64,000 nucleotides of DNA, from NCBI GenBank assembly GCA_015501585.1, contig JADNRY010000012.1, positions 124,001 through 188,000 on the forward strand, given 5' to 3'. The stretch is from Rhodocollybia butyracea (lineage: Eukaryota > Basidiomycota > Agaricomycetes > Agaricales > Omphalotaceae). Of this stretch, positions 52,680 through 58,315 are shown piece after piece. How positions within the stretch are numbered: the first letter of the stretch is position 1; each line of letters opens with the position of its first letter. The translations under genes were made by a program, and so were the position numbers. Under the pieces are notes generated by a model. The model saw nothing but the letters and a program-made list of their open reading frames with translations. It ran no database searches and was not told the DNA's origin.

Positions 52680-54188
52680 ATGTCTTTTATGCAACCTGCT
52701 CCCGAACCCGCATCCAAGCTTGGTGTTTACCGAGTACTCTCCCCACGCGCTGGGGTAAGAGTCTCGCCCATATGCCTTGGAGCGATGAGTATCGGTGATT
52801 CTCAGTGGAAATCGGTATGCATAAATCTCCCCCGATTCGATAACTAGGCCCTGCTGACTGTTGTTGTTGTTGTTGTTGTTCAGTTCATGGGGTCGATGGA
52901 CAAGGAATCCAGCTTCAAGCTCCTCGATGCATACTATAACATGGGAGGCAACTTCATTGATACAGCCAATAATTATCAAGACGAGACCTCGGAGAAAATC
53001 ACTGGGGAGTGGATGGAGAAGCGAGGAAACCGCGATGAAATTGTTCTTGCTACAAAAGTAGCTCAGCCCTTCTATGTCTGTTGATAAGTTGGTCTAATGC
53101 TTCGGCTCATAGTACACAACCAACTTCAAAAACGCCAACGATTCTTCAGTCAAGCAGCGTGTCAACTATACAGGGAATAATGCCAAATCTCTGCATCTCA
53201 GTGTAGAGGCGAGTTTGAAAAAATTGCGCACCAACTATATCGATATCCTATACCTGCATTGGTGGGACTTTGATACCAGTGTGGAAGAGGTAATGGATAG
53301 CTTGCATCATCTGGTCGCATCGGGCAAAGTGATCTATCTCGTATGTGGCTTTTCTGATATAACAACCTCGTGAATCGACCTTTCTGTCCATGTTTAGGGC
53401 ATCTCCGATTCTCCAGCCTGGATTGTCGCGCAAGCAAACCAGTACGCCAAAGACCACGGAAAGACGCCGTTCGTGGTTTATCAAGGCAAATGGAATGTCA
53501 TGGACCGCTCCTTCGAACGAGATATCATTCCTATGGCCCGCCAACTGGGTAAGTACTACTGCCCTTCTGTGGCTGGACCATATCACCAATATCTGTCTGT
53601 AGGACTAGCACTGGCTCCTTGGGCTGTCCTTGCTGGAGGTAAATTGCGAACAGATGAGGAAGAAGAACGGCGCCGCGCTACCGGTGAACTTGGACGTACC
53701 TGGGCTGGTTTCGGCGGTTGGGAACGTACGGAAGATGAAACTAAAATGAGTCGTGCGCTAGGGAAAGTTGCAAGGGATATCGGAGCAAACAGTATCTCTG
53801 CGGGTATGTTAATCGATCTATTTCTCAGTCACAATCAAGTACATCTGACGGCTTTCCATAGTTGCGATTGCCTACGTGATGCAGAAAACTCCATACGTAT
53901 TCCCTATCATCGGAGGGAGGAAGGTAGAAAACCTCGTAGAGAACCTTGAAGCGTTGAACATCTCTCTTACCGATGAACATATCAAAGAGCTGGAGAGTGT
54001 TCTTCCCTTTGACGTCGGTTTTCCATCTGATTTCATTGTGAGTTTGAGCTACTCTTAACTTATGATTTTACCATGCAGTGACACTGATCAACTCATCACA
54101 ACAGGGAGATGGATCTTCACCCCACTTCTTGTTGGCGGCGACAGCCAAAATGCAGAGACTTCCATACCCAAAGGCGCTTCGGCCTTAG
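52680..54188 (+). CDS. aldo-keto reductase 3 (aryl-alcohol dehydrogenase, AAD type)
   Basis: Intact paralogue of AKR2, about 385 residues: reduces aromatic aldehydes with NADPH. Start [35 protein letters not shown] continuous across the site broken in AKR2; Asp/Tyr in [11 protein letters not shown] (52950); Lys in VLATK (53055); His in YLHWWDFD (53260); [20 protein letters not shown] (53610); [12 protein letters not shown] (53905); end YPKALRP. Six introns. Intron 1 (52815-52883) ends in a run of TTG units that directly forms the acceptor. A TATA box lies 40-46 nt upstream. It stands apart from the other AAO/AKR genes, 10 kb to the right of AKR2, separated by housekeeping genes. Confidence 0.93.
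52859..52880 (+). repeat. TTG microsatellite at an intron 3' splice site
   Basis: Seven units of TTG-type repeat fill the space right before CAG of AKR3 intron 1, replacing the usual pyrimidine tract. Length changes here would vary the tract without touching the reading frame. Confidence 0.8.
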
Positions 54189-54412: not shown

Positions 54413-57400
54413 TTATAAATCTGGCGGCGGTGCGCACCTATCTGCTGAGAGACTAAAATCATTACCCCACCAATTGGGGAAAAATACCGTTGGCCCTGCG
54501 GCACCGAATATCTAAGGGTAAGTGTTTCAATAGCCAGGCTAAAGGAAAAAGAATGGGTGTCACTCACGGCCAAGTTGAGAATAAAGGAAATAACTTGTGT
54601 ACCACCATCAAGAGCTGGTATCCCGGAATTTCAGATAAGCAAACAAGATATCAACCAAAGTGTACACTTACCGCTAGGGGGAGGGGGGAAGGGAGGACAA
54701 AAAATGAGCATGATCATCGTCAAAGTTGTCTTGCTAGATGGCTCACCCGGCAATGATGTAATTATCTACAAATGATGTGGATGAGTTTCGAATGCGACAC
54801 CCAAAATTCGAGACATACACTTCGTAAACCACCTTGGGTACTTCCTCCGAACCCACCATTGCGACATTATACCCAGGAAAGTAGATGTATTTACAGATGA
54901 GTTGATTCCGACTGATCAAGGCATGCATTAGCCACTATCACAGTAACGACGCCAGGTAGCAAGTATTCACCCGACAAGAAGCAAGAGTATTGCATAACAA
55001 TGCCTGTGTTGAAGTTCGCCAAAAACTGGTTCTTCGGGAACTTGCGGTGAAGGAAATAATGGGGAATAGGCATAAGAGCACCGAGAGCGAGTGCAACTGG
55101 AACCATATAGTAGGTTTTTCCAGGACTAAACATTTCCCGACCCAAGGCTCCCCAGGCGATTGCGTTCGAGTTGAAGGACTGCGCGTTTTGGCCAGACCAG
55201 AGACGCGTTCCGGCTATAGTGAGTAACGCCGCACGTTGGTTTCTCACGATAGACAGCTCCATGACATAGTTCAAAAGAGCACCCTGTTGCCATATTAGAT
55301 GATTTTGAGTTTCCCATCGATATGAGTAAACTGAACGTACGACAACACAACCAAGAATCTGAACGAGGAAATTGATTTTCGGTGGGATCTGTTTCAATGC
55401 GGATTAGCAGACGACGCTCTGTTGAAATTTCAAGACCCGTCACCTTGATATACTGCCCGAGCTTCAAGTCGCCCAAAAGCAAGATACCCTGTACGGTGGG
55501 CTGACTTCCATAAAGCGCAGCATACATATTTGCAACTAAGAACAAGTTTTAGAAAGGGTAACGCTTAAGTATTGACACCTACTTGGATCTCCGGGAACCA
55601 TGTATGAAGCAATCCTATATGAGAAAATAATAAGTTGGTAGAGCCAAAGTGGTGATGTTCTATGGAACGCACATGGAGTAGAATCCATCCAACTGAGTAC
55701 TAAACTGCGCGAATCCAAGGATGGCGGATGTAGTACAATAGGCCATTGTCTAGCGGAGACTCAGAAGTAAGTTAACAGCCCCAGAAGAAAAATAGGAGAT
55801 GGTTGCGTACAAATACCAAGGAGATGATTAAGATCTATGAGTGAGATACCGTCAGCAGAACAGTATTGTAGCGAAGTGAAGCGTACAGACCACTGTAAGT
55901 TGCCACCAGGTGAAGTGGGAATCGCCAGTGTAATCAGTAGCCTGTTAATATCAGAGAGGGTAAATTTATCGCCTGATCATTAATAAACCAATATGACCTG
56001 TGCCATAGCATATGCAGCCACCAGTAATGCAACGAACCACCACCGGGGTACTTTTTCGTATCTATTTAGAAACTCAATTACCCGTTAAGTTAGGATGACA
56101 GACGATCTTGAACCAACCTCTTCATCACGATATAGTGCTCGTCATGAACAATTGTGACTGTCTTGTTCCACGGATTGAGAGCTCGCACAAACGGCTTCAA
56201 CTGTTCACGATAGAACAGACAGACATGACAAGTGTAGCACCCATTGCAAGATTAGCGGTAATAAAGTATAGAGCATTCGAAGCAGCAAAGTACGCCGGCT
56301 TTACAAGTCCAAATCAGTGAAAACATCCGAATGCAGAACACAGAGGACCTACTCCGATTGCTTCGAATTTGGCTTGATCAAATTTATTGTTCGTCAAAAT
56401 TGCGCTCTGGTTGTATTGATTACCTATCAGATATTGATTATATTGATTAAAGAGAGAGTTGAGTTTAAGAGAAAGGGAGACAAACCGTTGATGTCGAAAA
56501 TTGCTTGAGACATGAAAGGGAATCGACGTCCCTGCCAAATATTGCCGTAATACATCGCGCTCATAAGGCAATACTGCAAAAGGATGTGAGTACCTCGCTC
56601 TTTCCAGTAGTAATGATCTGAGCAGTCACCGTTAAGCAAATACCAATATTCTGGTTCAACTGAGTCCTAAAGTCCAAAAATTAAACAACAAGTACAGTCT
56701 TATGTATACTAGCAAAATCATACCAGAGGGGAGTGTAAAGGCAGGCGGATCCGATGAGATTCCAATCGAAACAGAAGGCAAAGAGCTATCAGAGTGTTCA
56801 ATGTCTAAGCCTAAGGAAAGTAATAACGACGACCTACCCCCATGCCTTCGTTGTTACTCGCCCCACCAAAGACGCTTTGAATTAGAATTAGAATCAGTCA
56901 GAAGTCGATACATCAAAGCGTTCCCTTACTTGCGGAAGACCTCCGACGTATTATCTGCTAGACAAAAGATGCTGAAACCAGTCATCAGAGGGAATATCCA
57001 TTGGGGAATGATCTCGTAGCAGAAAATGGTGGTGAATACAAGCCAGAAAAGCTTCGTCCGTTTGCTTGACAAACCACCATCGAAGTGGAGCCTGAGCACT
57101 TTTAGATAAGCTGTTCGCCGGATAACAAACACAAGGACGTACGCCTGAAACAAATTAGCAGGGCTAATGGCCGTGGGCCAGAAGGTAATCGAGGGATAAA
57201 CTAGTGCCTCTGTCAAAAATCCGGCAAAGCTGTAACCTGCAAAACGAATGGCCCATCAGATGTGAAGCAGGAACTGTGATAGATCGAGCAACCTATTAAC
57301 TGTGAACCAAGGAGTGTGAATATAGCGATTCCAGGGTTTAAGTTGTTGTTGCTGGAAATATATTTAGGAACTGTTTTTTGAATAAGAAATTTCATCTGAC

Positions 57401-58315
57401 TAGTAAAGGTTTTGGACAGAGATGACTTGAATAGCTGTCGCAGAAGAACTCGCCGTCGACGCCATGATTAAAGCGGAACCTATGGGATTAGTTCACGTTG
57501 GGACCAAGTGTACATGTGAGAAGCATACAGTGCTCCTTGATGTTGAACGGCCCAGGATTGATATGCCACCAAAACCCACGGGAAGGGAGGACCTTTTCCC
57601 AAGCTTTTCCGAAAAAGTATAGCATGATAAGAAGGAAACCTGTAATACGTTTATTCAGCCCTCGGCCCACACGATAGAAAAAGTAAGAAGGTTCACCCTG
57701 TGACACAAGGAGAGTTTGAGGCTTAAAATAGTAGAGTTGAGCCAAAACCGATCTATGAGTGGGGGGGCCAGGTTGTAGGGGAAGTTCCATATGAGTACTA
57801 ATTTACGCACCCGAAAGCGGAAAAGCCGAGTCCGAGAAAGAGCATACGGAAGGTGAGAACAGGGAGCTCGTAATCATCTCTAGTAGTTCGACATTAATAT
57901 CAACCCCTGGCAACGAAGAGCATAAAGTGGTCTCACCGAGTACTCAAGACTTGACATCGTAAGTAATGTTAGATTTCGAGAAAGAATGCGTGTCAGGCCC
58001 CACTATACCTTTGATAGCGATATCGTGCGCGTTCCGGACGAAGTACTCCTCGTCATCTGCGGTGCCGGCAGCGAGGCGAGCCTACGCAGAAGCGGCATTA
58101 ATCGTTCAAGCTTGTAGAAATAACGCAGCAAAGCGTACCTCGAGGTCCTCAACTTCCTTTAAGCGCAGCTGCTCTGATTCATTATCTGCTGGAACAGAGT
58201 CTGCAGTTTCCACATAGCCTAGTTTCTCATCGCTAGAGGTCTGAACATCCTTTTTCTCGACGTCATCGATGGAGGCGCTGTCTTGTCGTGCAGGAACTTC
58301 CTGTGTGCTTGTCAT
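54413..58315 (-). CDS. OPT family oligopeptide transporter 2
   Basis: Second proton-coupled oligopeptide transporter, distinct from OPT1. Start MTSTQEVPARQDSASIDD leads to an acidic cytosolic tail and a degenerate OPT entry motif (VLSTRDDYELPVLTFRMLF). Then LAQLYYFKPQTLLVSQ, FWWHINPGPFNIKEH, ALHFDGGLSSKRTKLFWLVF, FDWNLIGSACLYTPLW, YYGNIWQGRRFPFMSQ, KLGQYIKIPPKINFL, GTRLWSGQNAQSFNSNAIAW and YFLHRKFPKNQFLANFNTG. The end is FFPNWWGND then CAPPPDL. More than 20 small introns. Near the end, IIAG and ALDGGTQV can only be joined in frame through a 2-nt exon (54672-54673). With that the whole frame is open and no base change is needed. Substrate unknown. Confidence 0.88.
54672..54673 (-). other. 2-nt micro-exon (CG) of OPT2
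   Basis: The upstream exon ends ATT GCC GG at 54747 with a GTGAGC donor, and the downstream exon begins CT CTT GAT GGT at 54614. Direct splicing gives GCC GGC TCT TGA, a stop. Between them lies CCCCCTAG-CG-GTAAGT: a strong pyrimidine-tract acceptor, two bases, and a consensus donor. Including CG gives GCC GGC GCT CTT GAT, which is AGALDGG, as expected for OPT proteins. The flanking introns are 73 nt (54674-54746) and 57 nt (54615-54671), normal for this window. Confidence 0.75.

Follow-up and report, generated by a model that had tools for sequence, protein, structure and literature searches.

Can an exon of two nucleotides be needed to keep a gene in frame, and how could such an exon be spliced? 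The question arises at a gene for an OPT oligopeptide transporter (OPT2) in the window, the whole 64,000-nt stretch of DNA analysed here, which is contig C223:124001-188000 of the Rhodocollybia butyracea assembly (95.6 Mb, 1381 contigs). An earlier note on this DNA had proposed that the bases CG form such an exon. Exons of one nucleotide have been published for plants and, since 2026, also for a fungal gene, and a single 2-nt exon in OPT2 would therefore be of a known sort.

Gene structure and the splice junctions

The best protein match to OPT2 is P0001, itself named Rhodocollybia butyracea, and the gene model follows it (Table 1). The PF03169 profile scores over its cut-off, as fragments, at C223:178921-181637 and near-full-length OPT2 homologues also bear this domain, which places OPT2 in the OPT family. 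The protein is 79-81% identical over the full query to five of the six nearest orthologues from other genera, and the frame is open throughout except for an indel at 56227. The introns, the CG exon and the downstream exon lie, to the base, where the earlier note had put them. The coding strand at the site reads ..AATTACATCATTGCCGG^GTGAGC..(73 nt)..CCCTAG^CG^GTAAGT..(57 nt)..ATACCAG^CTCTTGATGG..

A further small OPT2 exon, of 13 nt (TCTTGAGTACTCG), occupies positions 57937-57949 in the P0001-guided model. Plus-strand frames at 52690-54060 resemble, by eye, an aldo/keto reductase gene and face OPT2 tail to tail. Neither the Rfam nor the tRNA scan of the window gave a match.

Table 1. Features of OPT2 and of its paralogue. 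Positions are those of the window unless a contig is named.
Feature	Position or count	Strand	Details
OPT oligopeptide transporter gene 2 (OPT2)	54413..58315	-	ATG to TAA; spliced alignment to P0001
OPT2 exons and introns	30 exons, 29 introns	-	P0001-guided model; one intron merely bridges the frame break near 56227
OPT2 upstream exon, 19 nt	54747..54765	-	ends ..ATC ATT GCC GG (phase 2)
OPT2 intron 1 of the pair, 73 nt	54674..54746	-	GTGAGC..CCCTAG
OPT2 putative micro-exon CG, 2 nt	54672..54673	-	in AGALDGG, completes the Gly codon and opens the Ala codon
OPT2 intron 2 of the pair, 57 nt	54615..54671	-	GTAAGT..ACCAG
OPT2 downstream exon, 47 nt	54568..54614	-	CT CTT GAT GGT GGT ACA CAA ..
OPT paralogue (L041)	C883:98800-104500	-	intervening stretch C883:99841-100138

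Reading frame and family spacing

Joining 54747 straight to 54614 gives NYIIAGS followed by a stop, the immediate stop that had been foreseen, and retention of intron 2 leads to a stop as well. With CG included the product reads NYIIAGALDGG, and the AGALDGG segment is indeed restored without any base change. Five residues separate an aromatic-N-Y block from LDGG in all 104 motif-matching proteins among the best 120 of 199 matches to OPT2, P0001 counted and the 16 listed proteins without a pattern match left out. The same spacing is seen in 118 of 118 motif-matching proteins among the best 120 of 672 matches to a paralogue on contig C883, two without a pattern match being left out. The orthologues P0002 to P0012 have [IV][AS]GALDGG at this position.

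Ten splicings with up to three consecutive introns (at least 20 nt each, GT or GC donors) leave OPT2 open, and one of them, 73 nt plus CG plus 57 nt, has the five-residue spacing. An alternative 8-nt exon (CGGTAAGT), which would give NYIIAGGKSLDGG, was rejected as two residues too long. A recursive, zero-nucleotide splice site does not fit either: the arrangement is AG^CG^GT and the frame requires both bases.

Spliced alignments with 12 homologous templates at three intron penalties used CG in 36 of 36 cases, and it was the sole exon of 8 nt or less in them. The aligner also recovered CG unprompted with the C517 paralogue as template, a result that is weak on its own because the aligner invents many tiny exons when introns are cheap and template identity is near 33%. 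Runs with remote templates gave many that were spurious and therefore the 12-template, three-penalty alignments alone should be weighed. At the level of sequence the CG exon has flanking introns with canonical ends, an intact frame and, among consecutive splicings, a unique place. A search for an OPT2 transcript found none, the 152-residue C-terminal query giving 57 matches among 101 candidate proteins, none of them near-identical.

Splice sites, intron length and chance

Splice sites were scored with a PWM derived from the remaining introns of the two genes, OPT2 and the C883 paralogue. These number 45, the 51 modelled less five that flank micro-exons and one frame bridge; the last C883 intron belongs to the set. 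The GTAAGT donor after CG, described from the outset as consensus, outscores 43 of the 45 regular donors. The acceptor before CG had been called strong and CT-rich. It has the pyrimidine-rich tract but not the strength, as it outscores one of the 45, and the same is true of the final CAG acceptor of intron 2. These low scores count against the micro-exon.

Regular introns in the two genes (n = 45) have a mean length of 55.3 nt (sd 4.2, range 47-66 nt), and an undivided OPT2 intron of 132 nt would therefore be far outside the range. The flanking introns had been considered normal in length; that of 57 nt fits, whilst that of 73 nt is somewhat long. Each intron flanking the ultra-small exons has GT-AG ends and a viable length (73 and 57 nt in OPT2; 92, 146 and 56 nt in C883), with the 92- and 146-nt introns outside the regular range.

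How often might such an arrangement arise by chance? In 5000 dinucleotide shuffles of the OPT2 intervening stretch, with the outer donor and acceptor hexamers fixed, some five-spaced splicing was available in 444, family-like residues in 81, and family-like residues together with GTRAG donors and YAG acceptors in one. Frame rescue alone is therefore not rare (about 9%); it is the strong sites and the residues that make the OPT2 case unlikely by chance.

The first enumerations, for OPT2 and C883, covered consecutive introns. Nested splicing was enumerated separately, with GT and GC donors for OPT2 and GT alone for C883, and in OPT2, stepwise removal with a minimum intron length of 40 nt brings in a single competitor. 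This is a [D1,2] stwintron, recovered by an exhaustive two- and three-step search of GT-AG introns of that size, in which an internal 80-nt intron (GTGAGC..GGTAAG) would be excised first to create a new donor, G^TGTAC, followed by an external 53-nt intron (GTGTAC..ACCAG). The product, NYIIAALDGG, is in frame, one residue short and made without a micro-exon, and ascomycete fungi offer established examples of donor-disrupted stwintrons (PMC5639578). The stwintron would, however, leave four residues between NY and LD, a number found in none of the 104 OPT2 and none of the 118 C883 motif-matching proteins (best 120 matches each), and the deposited P0001 also has five. Its external donor outscores three of the 45 regular donors and its internal acceptor, TAAG, one of 45, as opposed to 43 for GTAAGT. 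Enumeration of nested GT-AG introns found no comparable alternative for C883. We consider the stwintron improbable.

The homologous site of the C883 paralogue

The paralogue on contig C883 is split at the homologous site by 298 nt, arranged GCAGCTG^(92)^CT^(146)^CT^(56)^GGACGG, and appears to carry two successive 2-nt exons. The middle intron is flanked by two stretches, GATAG^CT^GTAAGGT, that are identical over 14 bases (GATAGCTGTAAGGT). With the two CT exons both skipped there is an early stop, and with one of them included a frame shift. Open splicings number 54 under a limit of three introns, each at least 30 nt long and with a GT or GC donor; when a fourth intron is allowed but GT alone is accepted as donor they number 11. 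A length limit applies in both cases. Just one gives NYIIAAALDGG, that with both CT exons included, and its product is the sole one of family length among 613 from nested or consecutive GT-AG splicing. The exact product was obtained in 36 of 2000 shuffles, and with strong sites in one of 2000. All 24 alignments, with eight homologues, used both CT exons; three of these, each made at zero extra penalty, contained a further exon of 6-8 nt.

A C883 cDNA retaining both CT exons would read GCTGCTCTGGAC. The product is matched at the protein level by the transcript-like P0124 (JGI source, three member sequences). This protein has 682 aa, its contig is 2137 nt long, and it is identical to the C883 genome translation over the first 656 residues including the micro-exon site. 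The frame differs near the C-terminus, where P0124 shifts at the last C883 intron. Its contig has at most 88 nt beyond the coding sequence, leaving no room for the 298-nt stretch, and because it is too short for the C883 introns we infer that P0124, known from its protein sequence, represents a cDNA from R. butyracea. No protein named Rhodocollybia is present among the best 120 of 672 matches to C883.

Assembly quality and the deposited protein

The 3′ part of OPT2 has a second assembled copy, C149:14170-16561. Over the 2706 columns of its alignment with C223 (about 2.7 kb) there are 22 indels and not one substitution; three indels fall inside OPT2 intron 1 and none at the junctions, and the three junctions have the same bases in both. 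The C149 copy is probably the same locus with lower consensus quality. It reads through (MGATLVHVCLFYREQLKPFVRALN) at 56227, where the frame of the window copy is broken, and this comparison indicates that indel errors are present within OPT2.

Might an error of this kind mimic the micro-exon? If two more true bases belonged at the GCCGGGTGAGC donor, for example a run of five G read as three, a single 134-nt intron and an Ala codon would result. The indels and the broken frame are compatible with this, as is the production of the project's PacBio and Illumina genomes with Velvet, AllPathsLG or Falcon plus Quiver polishing (PMC8480192). However, GGG is present at the donor in both copies along with the identical junctions, and a double loss in both is unlikely. 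The single intron would exceed twice the longest of the 45 others, the well-placed TAG^CG^GTAAGT would go unexplained (one in 5000 shuffles) and the error is silent on C883. We judge it highly improbable.

RNA-seq served for annotation according to the genome project (PMC8480192). The earlier note had expected automatic annotation to break the gene or call a false C-terminus. This was not borne out, since P0001 has 766 aa and the expected C-terminus, although it reads AGSLDGG at the micro-exon site, with serine in place of alanine. To obtain that sequence from the window DNA requires a 130-nt intron with GA..AG ends. The AGS might faintly reflect a transcript that had two bases more and was made to fit the GA..AG junction. 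We give this little weight because P0001 is also non-canonical at QLTVVLIISL, although a GT-AG solution exists there, and bridges the frame break at 56227 with a 29-nt intron.

Least credible is a decaying gene or deliberate skipping, in which the usual mRNA, GCCGG-CTCTTG, would encode NYIIAGS-stop and be non-functional or targeted for decay, CG being included conditionally; the immediate stop on omission of CG and the low scores of both acceptors suit this, but the frame, open bar the 56227 indel, and the 79-81% identity to orthologues from other genera do not.

A proposed mechanism for splicing a 2-nt exon

We think it very probable that OPT2 has a 2-nt exon, CG, between two ordinary U2 introns of 73 and 57 nt, which would be recognised by intron definition and removed sequentially, with CG included in the predicted mRNA. 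This reading is supported because the splicing is the unique five-spaced one for consecutive introns, is robust to template and penalty, and because the C883 paralogue, with P0124 as its match, needs such exons twice. On these grounds the main proposal, in which the frame and family sequence of OPT2 depend on a 2-nt exon, is supported.

Under intron definition each OPT2 intron would be recognised as a unit and CG never bound as an exon. When two bases separate an acceptor from the next donor, the footprint of U1 on that donor extends over part of the acceptor. This makes simultaneous assembly unlikely and points to sequential removal, most simply 5′ to 3′. Were intron 1 removed first, CG would be welded to the upstream exon and the strong GTAAGT donor of intron 2 then used, and in this order every step would lengthen a normal upstream exon by two bases. 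Intron definition is documented in filamentous ascomycetes by work on stwintrons (PMC5639578). A combination of intron definition and recursive splicing has been proposed for the single-nucleotide exon of Arabidopsis APC11 (PMC4674806), and with that proposal already published the definition of so small an exon is less open a question than the earlier note had suggested.

Comparison with known systems

The 1-nt exon of Fusarium CYP621A is conserved in more than 20 orthologues and supported by 18 reads (PMC12940212). As in that gene, the predicted ultra-small exon of OPT2 lies between two short introns in a conserved motif, its omission breaks the phase, and gene models are wrong. In CYP621A, as described in the same source, the ultra-small exon is single and 1 nt long. 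The exons proposed here are of 2 nt; OPT2 has one and C883 a tandem pair, and transcript support, at the level of protein, is available for C883 alone. Plant APC11 (PMC4674806) and VPS55 (PMC8831610) likewise have a constitutive exon of less than 3 nt, with a strong GTRAGT donor in VPS55; in these papers there is a single ultra-small exon per site, unlike C883. A rice transcript has two successive micro-exons as in C883, but of 5 and 12 nt rather than 2 and 2 nt (PMC8831610). We found no precedent for tandem 2-nt exons in the open-access literature searched, the nearest being these adjacent rice exons. With 2-nt exons at the same site of two paralogues, and in tandem in one of them, the arrangement seems to be a new variation on ultra-small exons.

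Ascomycete donor-disrupted stwintrons are of types [D1,2], [D2,3] and [D5,6] (PMC5639578, PMC6616335). The OPT2 pair is similar in that the introns are so close that excision must be sequential, and in the reliance on intron definition. In stwintrons, as these two papers describe them, an internal intron lies within an external one and nothing is kept between, whereas OPT2 retains two bases in the predicted mRNA. The micro-exon of Trichoderma Xlr2 is also fungal and missed by gene models as here, but is 20 nt long and regulated (PMC11121469). The analysis gave no sign of regulated inclusion of CG or CT, nor evidence against it.

Origin of the introns

The site introns of OPT2 interrupt Gly in phase 2 and Ala in phase 1; those of C883 lie in Ala phase 1, between Ala and Leu, and in Leu phase 2. 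Ala phase 1 is the sole position common to the 29 introns of OPT2 and the 25 of C883. As 0.33 would be expected by chance, one common position is not significant by itself. Its coincidence with the micro-exon site hints at an old intron with neighbours gained beside it, or at a hot spot. In other OPT paralogues the surroundings of the site contain a single ordinary intron or no intron. An OPT-like locus (L037, C472:435000-440500) aligned poorly to 12 templates, with a best score of 179.5, and is possibly degenerate or from a remote subfamily.

Introner-like copies were sought in the whole genome with a search that skips very common words. The 132-nt stretch of OPT2 matched itself and C149 only, the 298-nt stretch of C883 matched itself only, and the C883 gene gave no second copy. 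A scan of viral contigs for relatives found none. When the five site introns were compared as ten pairs, OPT2 intron 1 and C883 intron B were the most alike. Their similarity was reached by 4 of 300 shuffles, and C/T-rich tracts may explain it.

Implications

Exons of one or two bases show that splicing by intron definition does not depend on recognition of exon sequence. In the deposited protein the OPT2 site is mis-modelled, and exons this small can hide or distort genes. The C883 series goes beyond the single 1-nt cases published in the literature searched. With three introns and two 2-nt exons it is a natural substrate for the question of ordered removal, as partly spliced intermediates differ in length. 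More tentatively, the A-L codons of xxALDGG in the OPT transporters may have been subject to repeated, closely spaced intron gain that always left 2-nt exons. If removal is strictly stepwise and lengthens the upstream exon each time, the number and size of exons at such a site may have no lower limit.
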